Source: a virus. Taken from it: a stretch of DNA of 37,083 nt. The notes under the pieces are model-generated. The model was not told the DNA's origin and did no database searches. It saw only the letters and a program-made list of their open reading frames with translations. The DNA lies in the IMG/VR virus record IMGVR_UViG_3300042923_001835, positions 1 through 37,083 of that record; one strand, given 5' to 3'. Position 1 is the first letter of the stretch, and every line of letters begins with the position of its first letter. This document shows positions 1 through 37,083 of this stretch, in pieces. Position numbers and translations under genes: made by a program.

Positions 1-1395
1 TCAAAAATTCCACTCTATTTTTATATCATCATTATCTATAAAGATTTGTTTAATCAGAACGCTTAACATCTGCTGGCGTTCACCTAAATCTGAGTATTCC
101 CATATCACAGGCAGCTCTGCTAATAAGTCTTCTATTCCGGATATATCTGCGACCTCTCGAGGTTTTTCGTCTGTAATCTGTGACAATTCTTTTTTTTCAT
201 TATGCAATTTATCAATTTTATTACTAAGCTGCTCAATGGGTATTTTGTCAAATTGATATAATTCCATAAGCTTTTCGATTTGCTTCTCTATTTCAACAAG
301 GCGCTTTTGTATGCCTTTATTATCTCGTTCTTCTGCAGGCTTCTCCACACAAGAATAAAAATAATCCTTATCAGCAGCAAGCTTAAATATTTCAGCCTCT
401 ACATATTCATCCATCTCTGCCAAAGACCATATTTTGTTTTTACAGTTAGGATCCTTAATCATATGAGGTCTATTTTTAGCCCTGGAATAACATGTATAAT
501 ATTTATGGTCTGAGCTTTTGGACCTTAGAAAATATCTACCACCACAGTGTTTACAAAAAATAAAACCAGATAGTAGAGCTTGACGCTTAAAAGCCTTCTG
601 ATTTATTTCTTTATTTTGAATCCTTTTTGTTTGAGCTGCAGCAAATAATTCACTCGAGATAATAGCATCATGTTGACCTGGAGAAATTTTATCCTTAAAT
701 ACTATTACTCCAGTATACAATTGATTCTCCAATACATTTGTAATAGAAGTGTGGCTAGTCCATCCTGAGTGCTTATTGTCATATTTGATTTCAAGTTCTT
801 GTCTAACTCGTTCTATGCCAAATCCCTTGTTGACATACATATCAAATATATCTTTGATTTGCAAAGCTTCAAATTCATTTATAACAAGCTGTCCATCGAT
901 GTAATCATATCCAATAGGTACAAAGCCGCCACCGTGGAATAATCCTTCCTTGGCTCGCTCTACCCTGCCCATCAGCATACGTTCTTTTATCTGCTCTCTC
1001 TCAAGCTGAGCAAAAACTGAAAGTATACCTATCATTGCCCTGCCAAATGGAGAAGATGTATCAAAACTCTCGTTCATTGATACAAAATCTACCCTATTAC
1101 GCAGTATAACATCCTCTATAAGGTATAGGGTATCCTTTTGACTTCTGCTCAGTCTATCGAGCTTGTAGACAAGCACAACATCAAATTTATTCGTCTTAGC
1201 ATCCCTTATAAGTTTCTGCATGCCAGGGCGGTCAAGATTGCTTCCTGAATATCCACCATCCACTAATATATCTACTATATTCCACTCTCTCGCCGTGCAG
1301 TATGCTATTAGTCTATCCTTTTGTGCTTGGATGGAATAACCTTCTACAACTTGCTCTTGGGTGGAAACTCTAACATAGATCACAGCTCTTTTCAA
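1..1395 (-). CDS. int: Large serine recombinase (integrase)
   Basis: Site-specific integrase of the large serine recombinase family, expected to join attP to attB and, with a directionality factor, to excise the element. The 464-residue protein starts with a resolvase catalytic domain (about 1-140) with the nucleophile Ser11 in YVRVSTQEQ. A Recombinase domain follows (about 150-265), then a zinc ribbon with CKHC at 281-284 and further Cys in YTC and PNCKN, and a coiled coil (about 360-400). Length is normal for the family. The start is TTG at 1395 behind GGAGAG; no in-frame ATG fits. Its stop is the first base triplet of the window, so the flanking att site, if any, lies to the left. It is probably co-transcribed with the 46-aa ORF behind it and controlled by the LexA box at 1566-1579. 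Confidence 0.95.
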   Translation of the reverse strand: MKRAVIYVRVSTQEQVVEGYSIQAQKDRLIAYCTAREWNIVDILVDGGYSGSNLDRPGMQKLIRDAKTNKFDVVLVYKLDRLSRSQKDTLYLIEDVILRNRVDFVSMNESFDTSSPFGRAMIGILSVFAQLEREQIKERMLMGRVERAKEGLFHGGGFVPIGYDYIDGQLVINEFEALQIKDIFDMYVNKGFGIERVRQELEIKYDNKHSGWTSHTSITNVLENQLYTGVIVFKDKISPGQHDAIISSELFAAAQTKRIQNKEINQKAFKRQALLSGFIFCKHCGGRYFLRSKSSDHKYYTCYSRAKNRPHMIKDPNCKNKIWSLAEMDEYVEAEIFKLAADKDYFYSCVEKPAEERDNKGIQKRLVEIEKQIEKLMELYQFDKIPIEQLSNKIDKLHNEKKELSQITDEKPREVADISGIEDLLAELPVIWEYSDLGERQQMLSVLIKQIFIDNDDIKIEWNF

Positions 1396-3768: not shown

Positions 3769-4008
3769 ATGAAATCAACAGGCATAGTAAGAAAGGTTGA
3801 TGAACTCGGAAGGGTAGTAATACCAAAAGAGCTCAGAAGAACCTTAGGAATTGAGGAAAAGGGTGGATTAGAGATCTTCACGGAAGGCAGCCATATTATC
3901 CTCAGAAAGTACGAACCAGCTTGTGTATTCTGTGGACAAGCAGATGGCGTAACTGTCCACAAGGGCAAGAACATCTGCAAACCATGCAGAACTGAATTAA
4001 GAAAATAA
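3769..4008 (+). CDS. AbrB/SpoVT-type regulator with zinc ribbon
   Basis: 79 residues. Residues 1-48 are a SpoVT_AbrB swapped-hairpin DNA-binding domain (TGIVRKVDELGRVVIPKELR is near the family consensus). Residues 52-77 form a zinc ribbon with CVFC and CKPC. AbrB-fold proteins repress transition-state and phage genes; the ribbon is a common extra in clostridial versions. ATG 3769 with AAAAAGGAGGAG. Confidence 0.88.
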   Translation: MKSTGIVRKVDELGRVVIPKELRRTLGIEEKGGLEIFTEGSHIILRKYEPACVFCGQADGVTVHKGKNICKPCRTELRK

Positions 4009-5532: not shown

Positions 5533-6399
5533 ATGCCGTTTAGCAGTGAAAATTATCTAGATATTTTCGAAAAAACATTTGAGGATAGTGAAGAGGAAAA
5601 ATTTGAGAGTTTAAGAAGTAAGGATGTTTTTACATATAGGGTCAAAACAATTAAATCAGGAAAAATGCTTGAAAGTGAAATTTACCCATTATGGAAAAGT
5701 AAAGGTGAAGTTTCAAAAGCAAAAAAAATAATGGAAACCCGAAAAGCTCAAAAAAACTTAAATGATAAAAATGCCAAGAAAAATATTATTCGGAAGATCA
5801 ATACGAATTTTACTGAAGAAGATTTAGCAATTGACCTTACCTATAAGGGAAAACCTCCCGATGAAGAGCAGGCCAGGAAGGATATTCAAAATTATATACG
5901 TAGGGTCAGGGAATACCGTCGAAAAAATAAATTGCCCGAACTCAAATATATATATGTAATTGAGTTTGATGTAGAGGGAAAGGGAAAAAAGAGAATCCAC
6001 AATCATATGCTTATGAATTCGATGGACAGGGATGTTGCAGAAAAGCTCTGGAATAAAGGATATGCAAATTGCCGCCGTCTTCAGCCTGATGAATTTGGTT
6101 TAGAAGGAATTGCTAGGTACATAACCAAGGACCCAAAGGGAGCAAAGAGGTGGTGTGCAAGCAGAAATCTAGAAGAACCCAAAATAACAATAGCAGATCA
6201 CAAGATAACCAAGAGGCAAGCAGAAAAAATAGCCAAGAATGAGATTGATGCAGCCGCCATTTTTGAAAAGATTTATAAAGGCTATAAATTCAATGACATA
6301 AAGATTAGTTATAGTGATTTTGTTTCAGGCACATATCTTTACGCCAGGATGAGAGCAAATAAAGCCATTGAAAATAAGAAGAGGAGGAAGCGGGAATGA
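5533..6399 (+). CDS. rep: HUH-type rolling-circle Rep protein
   Basis: 288-residue HUH endonuclease-like replication initiator. Motif 1 is IDLTY (Asp101-Tyr104), the HUH metal motif is RIHNHMLMN (His156 and His158), and the catalytic motif is ARYITK (Tyr196, Lys199). The stretch around LQPDEFGLEGIARY resembles the rolling-circle-associated REP_ORF2/G2P-type proteins seen in Firmicutes phages. Such enzymes nick one strand at an origin, attach through tyrosine and start rolling-circle replication. A charged helical N-terminus (1-95) precedes the nuclease. ATG 5533 lies 12 bases after AAGGGGG, which is sequestered in a hairpin. Overlaps the nuclease gene by four bases. A relaxase-like role is possible but less likely. 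Confidence 0.78.
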   Translation: MPFSSENYLDIFEKTFEDSEEEKFESLRSKDVFTYRVKTIKSGKMLESEIYPLWKSKGEVSKAKKIMETRKAQKNLNDKNAKKNIIRKINTNFTEEDLAIDLTYKGKPPDEEQARKDIQNYIRRVREYRRKNKLPELKYIYVIEFDVEGKGKKRIHNHMLMNSMDRDVAEKLWNKGYANCRRLQPDEFGLEGIARYITKDPKGAKRWCASRNLEEPKITIADHKITKRQAEKIAKNEIDAAAIFEKIYKGYKFNDIKISYSDFVSGTYLYARMRANKAIENKKRRKRE

Positions 6400-6799: not shown

Positions 6800-7186
6800 A
6801 TGCTTAATAAAGCACTAGAAAAGATAAACAATGAAATGAGCCAAAGCAACAAGGATCCTTATATTCAGACTGTAGGAAGATTCTTATTACAGCATATTAA
6901 TGCTAATCATGAAGATGCAGAGAAAATACTTACAGCAGATAAGTCCATAGCTAAAAGTCTTGATATTATGAGGCAAGAAGCACAGAAAAAACAAGTTAAC
7001 CGATGTGGCATGTTTACTCCTGAGGAAGGTTTTAACATTGTTTTGAAATATTTTGGCATAGATAAAACTGGTACAAGTCTAGAACAAATTAATCAAACAG
7101 CAGTAAAAGCACAGCCGATTATTACTAAAATTAAGCAGCAAGATATTAGTTTTGATGTGAATCTGGAGGAGCTGCTAAATGGATAA
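6800..7186 (+). CDS. PcfK-like / AcrIIA9-family protein
   Basis: 128 residues resembling PcfK, named from the conjugative plasmid pCF10: DKSIAKSLDIMRQEAQKK followed by FTPEEGFNIVLKYFGID and an acidic end NLEELLNG. PcfK-like proteins of Firmicutes phages include AcrIIA9, an inhibitor of type II-A Cas9, so an anti-CRISPR activity is possible but not shown. It overlaps the PcfJ gene by eight bases; this pairing is conserved in many phages and plasmids. Family assignment is from remembered pattern. Confidence 0.7.
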   Translation: MLNKALEKINNEMSQSNKDPYIQTVGRFLLQHINANHEDAEKILTADKSIAKSLDIMRQEAQKKQVNRCGMFTPEEGFNIVLKYFGIDKTGTSLEQINQTAVKAQPIITKIKQQDISFDVNLEELLNG

Positions 7187-8807
7187 GAAGGTTGAAGAAT
7201 ATCTTAAACATTTCAGTTCGGAATTTAGTAAAGAAATTATTGATTATGCTACAAATGCGATGCTATTAGAGAGTCGGTACATATTTGTTACAACAATCAA
7301 AAAACAGCAGTACGGTTACTGTACTCATTGTAATAGTGAATTTAAAACACACCTGCAAAAGCCTACTGAAAAACAAACAGCTGAAATGGAGCAATGTGGA
7401 TGCCATGCAGCGTATTATATGCAGTCTGAGTACGAAAAACAGAAACATGGCGAAAAGTCCGAATGCCCAGTATGCAAAAGTACATGTACAGTGAGATATT
7501 CAGGCCTTGGACACAGCAGACTTCTTGACAGTGCATACTTCGTATACTATGAGAAATCTGTATTGGATCCAAAGGTGATTGTTGCTAGAGGTATTTTAGC
7601 TTGGAGAGACTATACCACTGATTATAAAAATATCAAGACTAAATTGCACACAGATTACTATTACATTTTCGAGTATGAAAAAGGTGGCAAGATGGTCAAA
7701 TGGATTGACAGGTGGCAGACTCCATCCGGTTGGGGGTTCACTAAGACCGTATATTCCAGAATTCGAAATCAGGCTCCAAGCACTAATGCTGGATATTCAA
7801 GAGAAAGTATTAAGGAAGCAGTTAAGAATACACCCTTTGCATGGAGTGGATGGGAACGGCATGAGACTGATGACATGGTCACCTATTTTGATTTATGTGC
7901 TAGATATCCAGTTGTAGAATACCTCAACAAACTGGGGTATGGAAAGTTAATAAAAGACAAGCTTAATCAGGCTAACACATTCAACACAATAAACTGGCGA
8001 GGCAAAACACTTTTGAAAGTGTTCAGACTCACGGAAGAAGAGTATCAGGTAATTAAGCAGCAAAAGATCATCCCTAGCTTCTGGTTTCTGCATCTGATAA
8101 AGCAGTGCAAGGACAAAGAATTTGGGCTAGGAATTCAGGAGGTAAGTGAGTTATCTGAAATAACTTATGGGTTAGGGGAGCTTGATACCATAAATATGAT
8201 GACATCAAAAAGCTTCACATTCAAAGATGCATTTAAGTACATAACCAAGCAAATACGTAAAAGCAAGAACATTTACAGTAGTGCATCAAGGGTAGCGAGA
8301 GACTGGCTCGACTATAAACAGGAATGTATAAAACTGAACATGGATATCAGCGAAATGAAAGTGATTTATCCAAATGATTTGCATGCAGCACACCAAATGA
8401 CCTCAGCACAAATAAAATACGCAGAAGATAAGGCTTTGACCGAAAAAATCAAACAGAGATTGCCTGAAATGAAAAAATACTTATTTAAATATAACGACCT
8501 ATTCATTAGACCAGCAGAAAGCTCAAAAGAGTTAGTCGAAGAGGGTAAAGCCCTAAGTCATTGCGTGGGACGTTACAGTAAAGATTACGCAGAAGGTAAG
8601 ACAAATATTCTTCTAATAAGAAAAGAGTCTGAACCAGACAAGCCTTATTATACAATGGAAGTTAAAAATAATCAGATATTCCAAACAAGGGGCTTAAAAA
8701 ATTGCATTCCGGATAAAGAGGTTGCAGCATTTGTTAAAGCTTTTGAAGATACAAAACTGAAGAAAGCGAAGAGCAAGGATAAGACAAAAGTAGCCAAATC
8801 AGCTTAA
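7179..8807 (+). CDS. PcfJ-like protein
   Basis: 542 residues. The C-terminal third has the PcfJ signature: FIRPAESSKELVEEGKALSHC, GRYSKDYAEGKTNILLIRK, DKPYYTMEV and QTRGLKN (about residues 445-515). The N-terminal part has a zinc-ribbon-like arrangement of Cys (YCTHC, CGCH and CPVCKSTC, about 48-105). PcfJ was named in the pCF10 conjugation region and is common next to PcfK in phages; its biochemical function is unknown. A very basic C-terminal tail suggests nucleic-acid contact. Start ATG 7179 with GGAGGAG. Confidence 0.88.
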   Translation: MDKKVEEYLKHFSSEFSKEIIDYATNAMLLESRYIFVTTIKKQQYGYCTHCNSEFKTHLQKPTEKQTAEMEQCGCHAAYYMQSEYEKQKHGEKSECPVCKSTCTVRYSGLGHSRLLDSAYFVYYEKSVLDPKVIVARGILAWRDYTTDYKNIKTKLHTDYYYIFEYEKGGKMVKWIDRWQTPSGWGFTKTVYSRIRNQAPSTNAGYSRESIKEAVKNTPFAWSGWERHETDDMVTYFDLCARYPVVEYLNKLGYGKLIKDKLNQANTFNTINWRGKTLLKVFRLTEEEYQVIKQQKIIPSFWFLHLIKQCKDKEFGLGIQEVSELSEITYGLGELDTINMMTSKSFTFKDAFKYITKQIRKSKNIYSSASRVARDWLDYKQECIKLNMDISEMKVIYPNDLHAAHQMTSAQIKYAEDKALTEKIKQRLPEMKKYLFKYNDLFIRPAESSKELVEEGKALSHCVGRYSKDYAEGKTNILLIRKESEPDKPYYTMEVKNNQIFQTRGLKNCIPDKEVAAFVKAFEDTKLKKAKSKDKTKVAKSA

Positions 8808-32540: not shown

Positions 32541-32744
32541 GTGGAAGAAATCAAGTGTAATTTGAAAGAGATTCGATTGAAAGAATATCTAATAGATAGT
32601 AAAAAAGAATTTGCAAGCATGCTTGAGGTTGAGGAACACAGGTATGGGAGTTGGGAGCGGGAGGAAAGTTTCCCTAATCTAAAGACGGCTTTGCAAATTG
32701 CAAATAAATTGAATAAAAAGTTAGAAGAGGTATGGCATCTATAG
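32541..32744 (+). CDS. Xre-family HTH regulator (67 aa)
   Basis: GTG 32541 behind GAGGTGG. Helix-turn-helix with IRLKEYLIDSKKEFASMLEV, EEHRYGSWERE and FPNLKTALQIANKLNKKLEE VWHL, the usual HTH_3 pattern (about residues 8-65). It lies just upstream of the parM region and could control the 22-aa unit or the partition operon. Its last codons are part of the terminator hairpin. Confidence 0.82.
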   Translation: MEEIKCNLKEIRLKEYLIDSKKEFASMLEVEEHRYGSWEREESFPNLKTALQIANKLNKKLEEVWHL

Positions 32745-32759: not shown

Positions 32760-32897
32760 CTATTACAAGAAAATTAATTATACTTTTATGAATACGGACA
32801 TACATAAATATATAAAAATATTAATAAATATATACAAATACCACCTAAATCAAAATGAAAAGTATAAACAAATATATAAAAGGAGGTAGAAGTATAT
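32760..32897. other. AT-rich repeat region upstream of parM (candidate parC centromere)
   Basis: 138 very AT-rich bases without a gene. AAATATATA occurs at 32806-32814, 32826-32834 (exactly 20 bases later) and 32870-32878, with further variants (AAATATTAATA, TACAAATACC). ParMRC systems carry such direct repeats just upstream of parM, where ParR binds and represses. It ends with the strong ribosome-binding site AAAAGGAGGTAG of parM. Confidence 0.5.
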
Positions 32898-33788
32898 ATG
32901 ATTATCGGATTAGACCAAGGATATGGTTACACAAAGACATCAGAAGGTATTATTTTTCCTTCAAAGATAAGCACTCAAGAGGATATCATGGGAGAGGGAA
33001 CACGATTATTGCTTGAAAATAAGACTTTTATAGTCGGTGAAGGCAATGTGGAAGTAGACCTTAACAGAATAAACAAGGAACTCACAAGAGTATGCCTGTT
33101 GGCAGCTCTCGCAAAGTCGAGTAACCAAAGTGATTTCCAAGTAGTAGCAGGACTCCCGTTAGGGCTTTTTAACTCACAAAAAGAACAAATGAAGCAAATG
33201 CTATTAAGCAACAAATATGTAGAGCTTGAAATCAATAAACAAAAGAGAGTAATATCAATCACTAGGGCTGAGGTATTTCCACAATGCCTTGGAGCTCATT
33301 ACTCACTTGATGCGATAGATGATACTGAAGATAGAGTTTACATTGATATAGGAGGGCGCACCGTTATCATTGCATTGCTGCAGATGGTTAATGGGAAAAG
33401 AAAAGTAACACAGCACTCAACTATATATGAAGGTACTCTTACCTTATTCTCCAAGATGGTTGCAGCAATCAACTCTAAATATGAGACACTTTTTGAGATT
33501 GAGGATGGAGAGAGAATTCTTAAGAATGGATTGAGTATATATGGAGAAAGACAAGACACAGGCTTTATAAGATGCATTATTGAAGAGCATACAGATAAGA
33601 TACTAAAGGAGCTGCTACTTAAATATCCGGTAAAGACAGCAAAAGTTATTTTGGTAGGTGGTGGAGCTTACGTATTGAAGCAGTTGTTTGATAAGCGGAT
33701 CCCGGGAATCAGTATTATGCCAAATGCACAATTTGCAAATGCTACAGGTTTTAAGAAGATAGGGGTGAGTTTATGGCAAAGGTATTAG
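32898..33788 (+). CDS. parM: ParM-like actin-type plasmid segregation protein
   Basis: 296 residues of the actin/StbA fold. Phosphate-1 motif GLDQGYGYTK (Asp6), phosphate-2 motif YIDIGGRTV (Asp150, Gly152, Gly153), adenosine motif LVGGGAYVL (Gly254-256). It would polymerise with ATP to push replicon copies apart. Length is slightly short compared with R1 ParM (320). Overlaps the next RHH gene by 16 bases, the usual parM-parR order. Its presence implies that the replicon carrying it is at some stage a low-copy plasmid. Confidence 0.9.
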   Translation: MIIGLDQGYGYTKTSEGIIFPSKISTQEDIMGEGTRLLLENKTFIVGEGNVEVDLNRINKELTRVCLLAALAKSSNQSDFQVVAGLPLGLFNSQKEQMKQMLLSNKYVELEINKQKRVISITRAEVFPQCLGAHYSLDAIDDTEDRVYIDIGGRTVIIALLQMVNGKRKVTQHSTIYEGTLTLFSKMVAAINSKYETLFEIEDGERILKNGLSIYGERQDTGFIRCIIEEHTDKILKELLLKYPVKTAKVILVGGGAYVLKQLFDKRIPGISIMPNAQFANATGFKKIGVSLWQRY

Positions 33789-33970
33789 TAAGCTTTAAGA
33801 AAAAGGAAACAGAGCTATACGATAAGGTGGTAGAACAGGGAGATAAAAGTAATTTTATAAAGGATGCATTGAAGTTCTACCTCAAGCACAAAGAGCAAAA
33901 AATAAATATTACCCCAGCTGTAACTGAGGTAAAGAGTGAGGAAATTATAGATATTCTTGGAAACATATAG
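33773..33970 (+). CDS. parR: ParR-like adaptor protein
   Basis: 65 residues. N-terminal ribbon-helix-helix pattern (KVLVSFKKKETELYDKVVEQ, GDKSNFIKDALKFYL) and a C-terminal acidic tail SEEIIDILGNI. In ParR proteins the RHH binds parC and the C-terminal helix caps ParM filaments. It is much shorter than R1 ParR (117) but similar to small Gram-positive versions. Assignment rests on RHH plus overlap with parM. Confidence 0.78.
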   Translation: MAKVLVSFKKKETELYDKVVEQGDKSNFIKDALKFYLKHKEQKINITPAVTEVKSEEIIDILGNI

Positions 33971-33975
33971 TATGC

Positions 33976-34040
33976 CCATAGCCGCGTATACTGCAGCTCC
34001 GCTCGCTTCGCTCACTTGCGCTACGCAATATAGCGTATGA
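33976..34040. other. GC-rich block between parR and next genes
   Basis: About 60 bases clearly richer in G and C than surroundings, containing GCGTATAC, CTGCAG, several GCTCGC/GCTCAC units and a small inverted repeat CGCTA / TAGCG (about 34018-34034). No reading frame. It might be a terminator-like structure, a recombination scar or a protein-binding site. Confidence 0.3.
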
Positions 34041-34079
34041 TTGAAATTTTCAAATTATGCAAGTACACATCTAATAATT

Positions 34080-34157
34080 CTAATGATAAGCCATTTCTAT
34101 AAGATAAAGCACTCCTGAAGCTGCTAGACAGCAACCACCAAATATTATAAATCCCAT
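34080..34157 (-). CDS. Reverse-strand hydrophobic peptide (25 aa)
   Basis: Minus-strand ATG at 34157 is preceded by GAGGTGA at seven bases. The 25-residue product (MGFIIFGGCCLAASGVLYLI, then EMAYH) is almost one transmembrane helix. It is the only leftward frame with a good ribosome-binding site in this module and sits between the partition genes and the T4SS-like genes. Small hydrophobic peptides beside partition genes are sometimes type I toxins; no antisense RNA promoter could be confirmed. Confidence 0.45.
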   Translation of the reverse strand: MGFIIFGGCCLAASGVLYLIEMAYH

Positions 34158-34200
34158 TAATTTCACCTCGTTTATATTATTCACAATAAGGAGGGTTTTT

Positions 34201-34482
34201 ATGTATAAAAAAATATTAGTGTTCTTACTAATTGCTATATTATTATTAACCGTGACTGTTAGTGCTGCCAGTGGAGATAGTGACTTCTGGAAGCTCCTAG
34301 TTGCTTTTAGAAAAGGTCTATTTTGGGTAGGGATATTCACCAGTTTTTATGGACTCTATTTACAAATGCTGAAGCATGATGATTTTGGGAAGAAGATTGT
34401 CATAGGCAGTGTATTAACTTATCTAGCAAGTTATATCGTACCAAATGTATTTGTAATGATTGATAAGACTTTTGGAGGGTAG
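34201..34482 (+). CDS. Signal peptide plus two-TM protein (VirB2/pilin-like)
   Basis: 93 residues: a signal peptide (1-23, cleavage near VSAAS), TM helix about 32-54 and TM helix about 64-86 separated by a short charged loop (KHDDFGKK). This is the layout of VirB2/TrbC-type pilins in type IV secretion, though sequence similarity cannot be checked here. AAGGAGGG upstream. First gene of a three-gene unit ending in an ATPase. Confidence 0.6.
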   Translation: MYKKILVFLLIAILLLTVTVSAASGDSDFWKLLVAFRKGLFWVGIFTSFYGLYLQMLKHDDFGKKIVIGSVLTYLASYIVPNVFVMIDKTFGG

Positions 34483-34490
34483 GTATTAAT

Positions 34491-34763
34491 ATGTGGGATA
34501 TATTAGATAATTTAAAAAAGTTCAATGAGTCTACCCAGGAGTACTTCACAATCATTAAGACTTTCTTCTATTATATTACCCATCCAAAGGAACTGCTTAT
34601 CTGGGTATGGAGTACTGCAGTTAATCTTAGTTTTTATGTATGTTTATCAATATTCTGTATTTGCTTAGTACTTCACCTGCTTGGTGTAAAAAAAGCAAGG
34701 TTATACGCTCAAATGGCATTCTTTGTATACCTGACAATTATGATATTTAATAGGGTGATGTAA
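34491..34763 (+). CDS. Two-TM membrane protein (VirB3-like by position)
   Basis: 90 residues with an amphipathic N-terminus (1-33) and two TM helices (about 36-64 and 70-88) separated by GVKKAR. Eight bases after the previous gene, one base before the ATPase gene. VirB3/TcpE-type proteins are of similar size and lie directly before VirB4. No sequence motif proves this. Confidence 0.55.
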   Translation: MWDILDNLKKFNESTQEYFTIIKTFFYYITHPKELLIWVWSTAVNLSFYVCLSIFCICLVLHLLGVKKARLYAQMAFFVYLTIMIFNRVM

Positions 34764-34764
34764 T

Positions 34765-37083
34765 ATGAAGTGGATGAAAGCAAGTGAGTTCTTTAAGATA
34801 TACAATCCAAAGTACAGCATACTAAAGATAATCCCTGATACTTCAATAAGAAACTATGACAGCGAGAATGTTGCTAGGGTGATCTGCAATATGTATAACC
34901 TTCCTATAGATAGACTAAAGTTTAAGAGTCACCAACTCACCTATAGGCTGCCAAATAAAACAGCGTTTTTTATTGATATAAGCTTGAAGGGTGTAAACTT
35001 TTATATAATCACTCCTGAAGAGTTTGAAAAGCTGATAATAGAGAAGTGTAGTAGTACATGGCCAAAAGCTACAATACAGAGAGTTGCATTAGTACCAATG
35101 TTCACTAGTAAAGCTATTAAGCATGAGCTGGTATATCGTAAAGAGGATGCCTTGAGCCTTAAAGTGGATAAAAAGAGCAATGAGCCGCTGAATAGCATAC
35201 TTAATGTAATTGATATTATGGAGCAGGATGATAGGGTAGGGGTGCTATATAACTTTATGCCAACTAATCAATCCTCCTGGTACAATAAACACCGTGACAC
35301 CATGGAGAAGATAAAGAAGAATACTCCTATAGATAAGCAAAAGCTTAATATTGGATATATAGTAATGTTTCTAATAGATGAGTTGATGAAAATATTCATT
35401 ATGACCTTTGAAGAAATGTCTAACTTTATAGGTGAAGGAAAGAATATTACTGAAGGACGCAAGGAAGAGGGTCCTGGCATGCAACTTTACAAGATGCTTT
35501 CGGCAACCACATTAAGAAAGGCTGACCGCAATATCTTGGATACACAGGTACTTGTGATCAGTGACAGCCAAAGTGAAACAAGAGCAAAGAACAATGCTGC
35601 AGCTGTATGTGAAAGCTATAAGACTATTTCGGAAGATAATAGCTTTTCATACAGAACTGCAAAGTGCAGTTTTGATTATGAGAGTTTCAAAATCAAAGGT
35701 GTAGCCATTAACATAGTTAGTACCGAGGAAGCTGCTAACCTAATCCAAATACCCGGTAGAACATTGTTGCAGCAGCATCCCAATATTGAGAAAGTTGATG
35801 TACTTGAAAGTCCCATACCTGTGGAAATAAGTAGCGGATATATATCCCTTGGAGATGCAACATACAAAGGTCATGAATACCACGCATTCCTTCCGGATGA
35901 ATATAACCTTGGCAACTTACCTTTGACGATTGTAGGTCCGCCAGGAAGCGGAAAAACCACTTATATTGCAAACTATGTAAAATACGCAAGACAGCGTAAA
36001 GAAGCTGTTATATCAATAGACTTCATAAAAAATTGTGAGTTATCAGATGATATTGAAAAAGTAGTGCCAAAGGAAGAACTCATTATTATTGATTGCTCCA
36101 ATGAAGATCAACTGCAGGGTCTTGGATATAATGAAATTAAACGTACTAACAAAAGTGATTTTGAAAGACTTAAGGCTTCTAATCTTATGGCTGAGCAGAC
36201 ACTAGCTTTGGTTGATAGCATTAACAGCGAAGGACTTCCACTTACATCGAAAATGCGTAGATATTTATCAGCTGCCTGCAATGTGGCTTTTCTATTTGAT
36301 ATAAATATTAAATCTGCAATAATGTGTTTGCAGGATTACAGGAAGAGGCAGGAATATATTAAAGCAATACCAGAGTCTATGAGGAACTTGCTGGAAGAAG
36401 AAATAGGAGCGTTAGAAGAACTGAACGAATATACCCTTGCGAAGGATCCTAATACAAAAGAAGTTTTATCAGAACTAACAGGAACTAGAGATAGTAAGAT
36501 AGATGGGATATTGGACCGTATAAACCTTATCAGAGAAAATATATATTTAAAGTATATGTATAGTAAAGGATGCTCCAACAATATAGACTTCGTTCAGGCT
36601 ATGGAGCAGGGCAAAGTGATACTAATAAAAATGCCAGAAGACACCTTTGGAAGCAAGATGGTTAAGAACGTATTAGTGACATACTTCTGCAGTAAGATTA
36701 TATTAGCAACCAAGATCAGAGGATCTATGCATAATCAGCCCACACGCTGCCATGAAATCATTGATGAACTATACCAAGCGCCAACTGCAGCGAGGCTTAT
36801 TAAAGAAACTATAAACCAGGTACGTAAGTTCGGAAACAAATATGTATTCAGTTGCCACTACTTGAATCAGATAGGTACCTTAAAGGAAGAGCTCAAAAGT
36901 GGAAATAGTTCGTATATGTTGCTACATGGAAGTGATAAGACTATCTACAAGGAACTAGAGGATGAATTGAAGCCATATGAAGTTGAGGATTTGTTGAACC
37001 TGAAAAGGTTTACTTCTCTTAATCTTATTAAGTATCAAAAGGGTTATGCAAAATTTATTTCAAAGTTGCCAAAGCCTGTTTAA
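34765..37083 (+). CDS. HerA/VirB4-superfamily ATPase (772 aa)
   Basis: 772 residues. The N-terminal 385 residues have no motif I recognise; the C-terminal half is a RecA-like motor with Walker A GPPGSGKTT (391-399), Walker B CHEIIDELYQ (Asp667, Glu668), and a following RKFGNKYVFSCHYLNQIGTL segment in the place where VirB4/VirD4 proteins have their Q-motif helix. The large helical insertion between Walker A and B (about 430-600) also fits DNA- or protein-pumping ATPases. It ends at the last base of the window. Type IV secretion motor, coupling protein or DNA translocase are the options. Confidence 0.78.
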   Translation: MKWMKASEFFKIYNPKYSILKIIPDTSIRNYDSENVARVICNMYNLPIDRLKFKSHQLTYRLPNKTAFFIDISLKGVNFYIITPEEFEKLIIEKCSSTWPKATIQRVALVPMFTSKAIKHELVYRKEDALSLKVDKKSNEPLNSILNVIDIMEQDDRVGVLYNFMPTNQSSWYNKHRDTMEKIKKNTPIDKQKLNIGYIVMFLIDELMKIFIMTFEEMSNFIGEGKNITEGRKEEGPGMQLYKMLSATTLRKADRNILDTQVLVISDSQSETRAKNNAAAVCESYKTISEDNSFSYRTAKCSFDYESFKIKGVAINIVSTEEAANLIQIPGRTLLQQHPNIEKVDVLESPIPVEISSGYISLGDATYKGHEYHAFLPDEYNLGNLPLTIVGPPGSGKTTYIANYVKYARQRKEAVISIDFIKNCELSDDIEKVVPKEELIIIDCSNEDQLQGLGYNEIKRTNKSDFERLKASNLMAEQTLALVDSINSEGLPLTSKMRRYLSAACNVAFLFDINIKSAIMCLQDYRKRQEYIKAIPESMRNLLEEEIGALEELNEYTLAKDPNTKEVLSELTGTRDSKIDGILDRINLIRENIYLKYMYSKGCSNNIDFVQAMEQGKVILIKMPEDTFGSKMVKNVLVTYFCSKIILATKIRGSMHNQPTRCHEIIDELYQAPTAARLIKETINQVRKFGNKYVFSCHYLNQIGTLKEELKSGNSSYMLLHGSDKTIYKELEDELKPYEVEDLLNLKRFTSLNLIKYQKGYAKFISKLPKPV

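Follow-up and report, generated by a model that had tools for sequence, protein, structure and literature searches.

A ParM-linked, VirB4-like ATPase cassette beside the attP site of a phage: a candidate DNA translocation module

We describe here a cassette at the right end of the genome record of a temperate phage, IMG/VR IMGVR_UViG_3300042923_001835 (positions 1 to 37,083; the whole 37,083-nucleotide stretch is referred to as the window), in which genes for a ParM-type actin-like protein and a small DNA adaptor are followed by genes for two small membrane proteins and a large VirB4-like ATPase. Components of this kind have been described in several other settings. The ParM of plasmid R1 binds TraD, TraC and TraI, which are respectively a coupling protein, a VirB4-like protein and a relaxase, and promotes transfer (PMC4949242); in prophage CGP3 the actin-like AlpC is linked to phage DNA through AlpA, and efficient replication of the phage DNA depends on AlpC (PMC4446434). 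Among phages, Novomoskovsk and Bolokhovo and the Tyroviruses (gp11-18) have been reported to carry together either TrbC/VirB2, Replic_Relax, FtsK and ribbon-helix-helix (RHH) proteins, or ParM, RHH, a type IV secretion system protein and Replic_Relax (PMC9658697, PMC9703825). The authors who described Grass recorded FtsK/SpoIIIE and ParM, whose role they considered unknown (PMC3853049), and a study of the Bastille group recorded SpoIIIE homologs in 21 members (PMC4528723).

We propose, with a probability of roughly one half, that the cassette is a phage-owned, minimal DNA translocation module derived from type IV secretion. Related sets in many other phages of spore-forming bacteria, some of them purely lytic, are probably versions of a widespread, largely unstudied device that moves phage DNA across a membrane.

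Composition of the cassette

All of the cassette genes are on the plus strand, and the five open reading frames, their membrane topology and the Walker motifs are present as a preliminary description of this DNA had claimed. The claim that they lie with almost no gaps is true of the final three genes only; a conserved 230-bp stretch separates the adaptor gene from that of the first membrane protein.

The largest product is a 772-residue ATPase (34765-37083) that matches the PHROG 5156 profile along its full length (2.5e-101, residues 2-760). Its Walker A motif, GPPGSGKT, is at residue 391 and a DE pair at 667-668, and the key catalytic residues are invariant in 18 relatives. In a Foldseek search of the PDB with an AlphaFold2 model (pLDDT 82.9), the top match is VirB4/TrwK of R388 (E 7.5e-14 over about 890 columns); the low TM-score (about 0.33) and high rmsd (about 14) of this match probably arise because the domains are differently oriented. 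Further matches are to TrwB (TM 0.55-0.60 of target), HerA and a Thermoanaerobacter VirB4 (0.64). When the N-terminal 372 residues were modelled separately (pLDDT 84.4), the only matches below E 0.02 were chains of the TrwK/VirB4 system. Profile comparison, in which the sequence profile covers the motor only, places that domain equally near VirB4 (2.7e-11) and VirD4 (1.7e-10); hhalign with the 18 close ATPases alone reached only the Walker region, and distant phages were added to the profile. A PDB sequence search gave no informative match. The ATPase is thus predicted to combine a VirB4-like N-terminal domain with a VirB4/VirD4/HerA-superfamily motor, in agreement with the HerA/VirB4-type assignment made earlier, and we regard it as a third branch whose architecture is VirB4-like. 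In a relative from Clostridium akagii (L025) about 9 kb separates the two parts of the match to the ATPase, which points to an insertion within the gene.

Identification of the 296-residue ParM/Alp-type protein (32898-33788) is firm (Pfam ALP_N 6.4e-23; phrog_691, 'partition protein', 8.3e-48). Its gene overlaps by 16 bases that of the 65-residue adaptor (33773-33970), which has no significant Pfam RHH match; the adaptor's size and ParR position fit (phrog_18533, 8.9e-12), and with the family alignment we describe it as RHH-like. Upstream of ParM are three direct iterons (32804-32882), copies of a ATAAATATATA(A/C)AA-like sequence at 32804, 32824 and 32868, which may serve the ParM system as its centromere (parC) and are partly conserved in two relatives (L003 and L004). 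These parC-like repeats, noted previously, exceed what dinucleotide shuffles give (P 0.0005), with the qualification that the motif was chosen after inspection.

The 93-residue protein (34201-34482) has a signal-like helix at residue 5 and hydrophobic segments at 39 and 66. The commonest Pfam match in its family of 29 is TrbC/VirB2, found in five members, the best being that of 035JT001 (4.4e-6; 27.3 bits against a cut-off of 27.9); the family alignment has no conserved stretches usable for a scan. Mass spectrometry of purified TP-84 particles detected the homolog TP84_47 with at least two peptides, and the adaptor TP84_45 and ATPase TP84_48 were listed as 'not determined' (PMC5889276). This is consistent either with a pilin-like protein being released from the cell or with a constituent of the virion. 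Directly before the ATPase is a 90-residue protein (34491-34763) with hydrophobic segments at 48 and 71; none of the 21 members of its family has a profile match. Its position is right for VirB3, and in phage vB_BboS-125 it is replaced by an M23 peptidase with a transmembrane (TM)-like tail (weak profile match, 1e-3). It is likely to be the membrane partner of the motor. Of the virB2-virB3-virB4 identity proposed earlier, the VirB4-like ATPase stands, the 93-residue protein is probably pilin-like, judged by its family, and the VirB3 assignment is without profile support and unproven.

Immediately upstream of the cassette is a gene for a 67-residue XRE-type helix-turn-helix protein (32541-32744, plus strand; HTH_3 0.0005), homologs of which occupy the equivalent position in relatives L005-L006, L008-L009, L014, L019, L021 and L023. 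Within the cassette, the sequence following the adaptor gene (33971-34040) is conserved, non-coding, GC-rich and partly palindromic, and may be a terminator or RNA structure; it has no Rfam match, and no known RNA or tRNA feature was found in the window. Between the adaptor and pilin-like genes there is also an antisense micro-ORF (34157-34080, minus strand) with a good Shine-Dalgarno sequence, encoding a 25-residue membrane peptide, MGFIIFGGCCLAASGVLYLIEMAYH, that is kept with conservative changes in L002, L003 and L004.

Position at attP and recurrence in other phages

Both ends of the record coincide exactly with stop codons, that of an integrase at position 1 and that of the ATPase at 37083, as expected when a prophage has been cut out along gene boundaries, and 37083 therefore marks a cut and not a biological end; for this reason the location of the cassette was settled through its relatives. 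In the closest of these it lies between the lysis genes and the integrase, at attP. On a single contig (L016/L003, ATPase 91% identical) the lysis genes are followed by the cassette and then by a tyrosine integrase, a repressor, an AbrB-like gene and replication genes that are colinear with the window at 5.2-7 kb. In a second relative, G001 (ATPase 92%), the integrase is the same large serine integrase as in the window (1-1395, minus strand; Pfam Resolvase 5.8e-42, PHROG integrase 5.3e-127); the ATPase stop codon is followed by 114 bases, the att core CTTATCAAGAGACATAG... and the end of the integrase gene, and at the opposite end of the sequence an identical 126 bases are preceded by 48 unrelated bases. 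The simplest reading of these junctions is that one represents attP, from the circular form, and the other attL, from the integrated form. Chromosomal relatives (L018, L020 and L021) have ordinary bacterial genes directly past the ATPase, and in the isolated phages TPDSL_ph2 and D6E the ATPase adjoins the integrase.

Because in the relatives the cassette lies at attP, flanked by the lysis genes and the integrase, with host genes after the ATPase, it is phage DNA adjoining attP, next to a slot taken by differing integrases; in the circular phage the window's integrase would lie directly beyond the ATPase, across attP. The earlier attribution of the module to the phage is borne out: no attR sequence or host gene was found between 31 kb and 32.8 kb, nor were ParM and the ATPase found conserved only in genomes without the phage. 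Fusion of a plasmid or integrative and conjugative element onto the phage end is ruled out by relatives' contigs that span the junction, and an assembly artefact by the similar gene order of isolated phages. As a separate observation, the integrase is swapped beside a constant cassette, being of the tyrosine type in L016 (8883-9920) and of the serine type in the window.

A tblastn search with the ATPase recovered 54 phage records and only four plasmids, all of them non-mobilizable. At 41 loci, profiles identify upstream of the ATPase the adaptor (37 of 41), the pilin-like protein (about 38), the 2-TM protein (about 31) and a nearby ParM (about 20); these counts are descriptive and not independent tests, as a number of the loci are closely related to one another and the majority contributed to the profiles. 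Related sets of ParM, adaptor, membrane protein and ATPase are present in lytic SPO1 (the actin-like protein 27.9, 27.8 where the adaptor would be, small genes for membrane proteins, the ATPase 27.4 and the Replic_Relax protein 27.3), PJN02 (ParM, a ParG-like protein, two membrane proteins, ATPase and Replic_Relax) and vB_BboS-125. Phage G (L080, 758-3829) has a TrbL/VirB6 protein (1.8e-11) and a VirB4 (TraG P-loop, 1.6e-15), followed by an ATPase of the window's type. Shortly downstream of the ATPase of phage vB_BpsM-61 there is a Spo0E-like ORF (L078, 4996-5139).

In some relatives the motor itself is exchanged. Grass and Eldridge carry ParM, the adaptor, an M23 peptidase, the pilin-like protein, a six-TM protein and an ATPase that has the family N-domain (hhalign of this domain alone, E 1.2e-5, where 40 shuffles gave 0.013 at best) joined to an FtsK/SpoIIIE motor (PF01580, 2.8e-47 and 1.1e-49); the six-TM protein is related to TrbL (58.6%, E 9.5e-5 against 0.011 for the best shuffle) and is VirB6-like. 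Silence and 276BB001 likewise have an FtsK-like motor together with Replic_Relax and the pilin-like protein. Envelope parts thus recur among the relatives, as M23 peptidases and VirB6-like proteins (Bastillevirinae included) and as TrbL and VirB4 in phage G.

Proposed DNA translocation and its alternatives

FtsK/SpoIIIE is a family of double-stranded DNA pumps. The exchange of the VirB4-like motor for such a pump while its partners stay, together with the DNA adaptor and nickase-like neighbours, leads us to infer that DNA is the substrate. In the assembled module the RHH-like adaptor would bind the iterons on circular phage DNA, excised or replicating, and ParM filaments would grow from this complex and bring it to the membrane. 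There the ATPase would dock on the 2-TM protein to form a hexameric motor, with the pilin-like protein forming a structure that spans the membrane or extends out of it, and ATP hydrolysis would power passage of the phage DNA through a membrane or septum, its target being a forespore or a neighbouring cell. A possible nickase partner is the HUH-type Rep, a nicking replication initiator (5533-6399, plus strand; Pfam REP_ORF2-G2P 2.5e-11), which is homologous to the 'replication initiation protein' of TPDSL_ph2.

Several observations weigh against DNA translocation. VirB6 was not recognised in the window, where no ORF has more than three predicted TM segments; nor was VirB8, although no search dedicated to it or to a VirB10-like scaffold was made and not all small window ORFs were scanned; and among the scanned window proteins no classical relaxase was recognised, the HUH Rep being the sole nickase-like protein. 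About half of the 41 loci lack a ParM close to the ATPase, the window's own 93-residue protein has no significant TrbC match in Pfam, and the structural TM-scores of the ATPase N-domain are low (0.28-0.37). VirB4 proteins of known systems also take part in handling pilin and in protein secretion.

One alternative is a pilus or surface-filament device, in which the ATPase would be a VirB4 pilin motor that both extracts the pilin-like protein and polymerises it, giving a filament or a layer associated with the virion; DNA would not be moved, and ParM and the adaptor would act separately. This would account for the VirB4-like N-domain, the TrbC-like family of the 93-residue protein and the particle data from TP-84, but we consider it unlikely given that FtsK/SpoIIIE motors replace the ATPase in four phages and that the ATPase is more regularly accompanied by the adaptor, a protein of DNA-binding type, than by ParM. 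Somewhat less plausible still is plasmid-style maintenance, with ParMRC segregating an extrachromosomal prophage and the virB-like genes as remnants of a conjugative plasmid. The ParM-adaptor-iteron layout would fit it, ParM lies upstream of VirB4, M23 and TrbL genes on conjugative plasmid pNCI002 and on an Exiguobacterium plasmid, and similar genes on Novomoskovsk, Bolokhovo and the Tyroviruses were so read by their authors (PMC9658697, PMC9703825); yet the window encodes a serine integrase, relatives are chromosomally integrated with host genes directly past the ATPase, G001 has attL-like and attP-like junctions, the set persists in lytic SPO1-like phages, and an ATPase with invariant catalytic residues is not decaying. 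The preliminary description's phage-plasmid is unsupported on the same grounds of integrase and integration, and its division into a partition system and a separate virB cassette is not supported, since ParM and adaptor recur with the ATPase even in lytic phages that have no plasmid state.

Location at the prophage edge also suggests a lysogenic-conversion block beside attR that acts in superinfection exclusion or defence. A defence-system identity for the ATPase was rejected, the PADLOC match, to a MADS defence ATPase, being weak and limited to the motor, and such a role appears improbable for a cassette that is kept in virulent phages, has constant DNA-positioning partners and has no defence effector or nuclease partner. 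Equally improbable in our estimation is membrane anchoring only, whereby ParM, adaptor and ATPase would hold replicating phage DNA at the membrane for replication or packaging without transport: the requirement of CGP3 for its actin-like protein in efficient DNA replication (PMC4446434) offers a precedent, but pilin-like proteins, M23 peptidases and VirB6-like proteins make little sense for anchoring alone, and a terminase for packaging is already encoded in the window.

DNA moved by a translocation module could be bound for the forespore, a neighbouring cell or the replication site. Nearly all of the recorded hosts are spore-formers. The SPO1-type ATPase is found in 68 records, all named for spore-former genera except that of a single Microcystis phage; both 'Deep-sea' records belong to D6E, which infects Geobacillus. 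The SPO1-type ParM is found in 102 records, of which 100 are named for spore-former genera and two are unnamed. Two related records, f2b1 and MVC_VPHSA1, give S. aureus as host; f2b1 is classed in the Bastillevirinae, and a large share of its gene names refer to phages of Bacillus megaterium. The sporulation marker SpoIVA is present in 14 of 14 carrier genomes and in 336 of 398 of a phylum sample (P ~0.09), which is no real discrimination; a connection to sporulation is suggestive, with taxonomy as a confounder. Phage genomes are known to become entrapped in spores (PMC9429907). It is a tentative and rather doubtful extension that many phages of spore-forming Bacillota, virulent ones included, actively export their DNA independently of virions through a conjugation-derived machine, into the forespore to give phage-carrying spores or into neighbouring cells. 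If the cassette does move DNA, phages would gain a route of transfer or persistence without a capsid, a putative second route of spread of the kind previously suggested, and spore entrapment a candidate phage-encoded machine. The exchange of VirB4-like and FtsK/SpoIIIE motors in one gene context also informs the evolution of DNA pumps, and carriage of the cassette by the tractable B. subtilis phages SPO1, 049ML001 and Grass makes these ideas testable at the bench.

Two further window genes are noted. One (3769-4008) encodes an AbrB/MazE-type regulator with a zinc ribbon that is conserved in several relatives, and the other (7179-8807) a PcfJ-domain protein (8.2e-37); the PcfJ family takes its name from a conjugative plasmid gene.

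Comparison with known systems

The window's ATPase shares its motor fold with VirB4/TrwK and VirD4/TrwB of R388 and the HerA/FtsK superfamily, and its N-domain resembles TrwK only; it differs from the R388 proteins in being far from them in sequence, located in a phage without a full VirB set, and equidistant in its motor from VirB4 and VirD4. Gram-positive conjugative plasmids of the pNCI002 type (MOBQ, MPF_T) likewise have ParM upstream of VirB4, an M23 peptidase and TrbL, but their relaxase, VirD4, TrbL and topoisomerase are not found beside the phage cassette. AlpAC of the Corynebacterium prophage CGP3 similarly places an actin-like protein and a DNA adaptor on circular phage DNA, whereas a membrane ATPase or pilin-like protein is not mentioned in the portion of the account considered (PMC4446434). 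The authors who reported the blocks of Novomoskovsk, Bolokhovo and the Tyroviruses took them for genes of plasmid origin or for remnants in single phages and not for one recurrent module, and no paper joining these genes into one module was found in the literature searched, which included few subscription papers; the parts have been reported piecemeal in single-phage papers. Among phages, the PHROG 5156 ATPases (SPO1 gp27.4, TP84_48, phage G gp156 and those of GBK2 and 049ML001) have full-length homology and similar small-gene neighbours, and the window is distinguished from them as a Clostridia branch in which ParM is directly attached and the cassette lies at attP.

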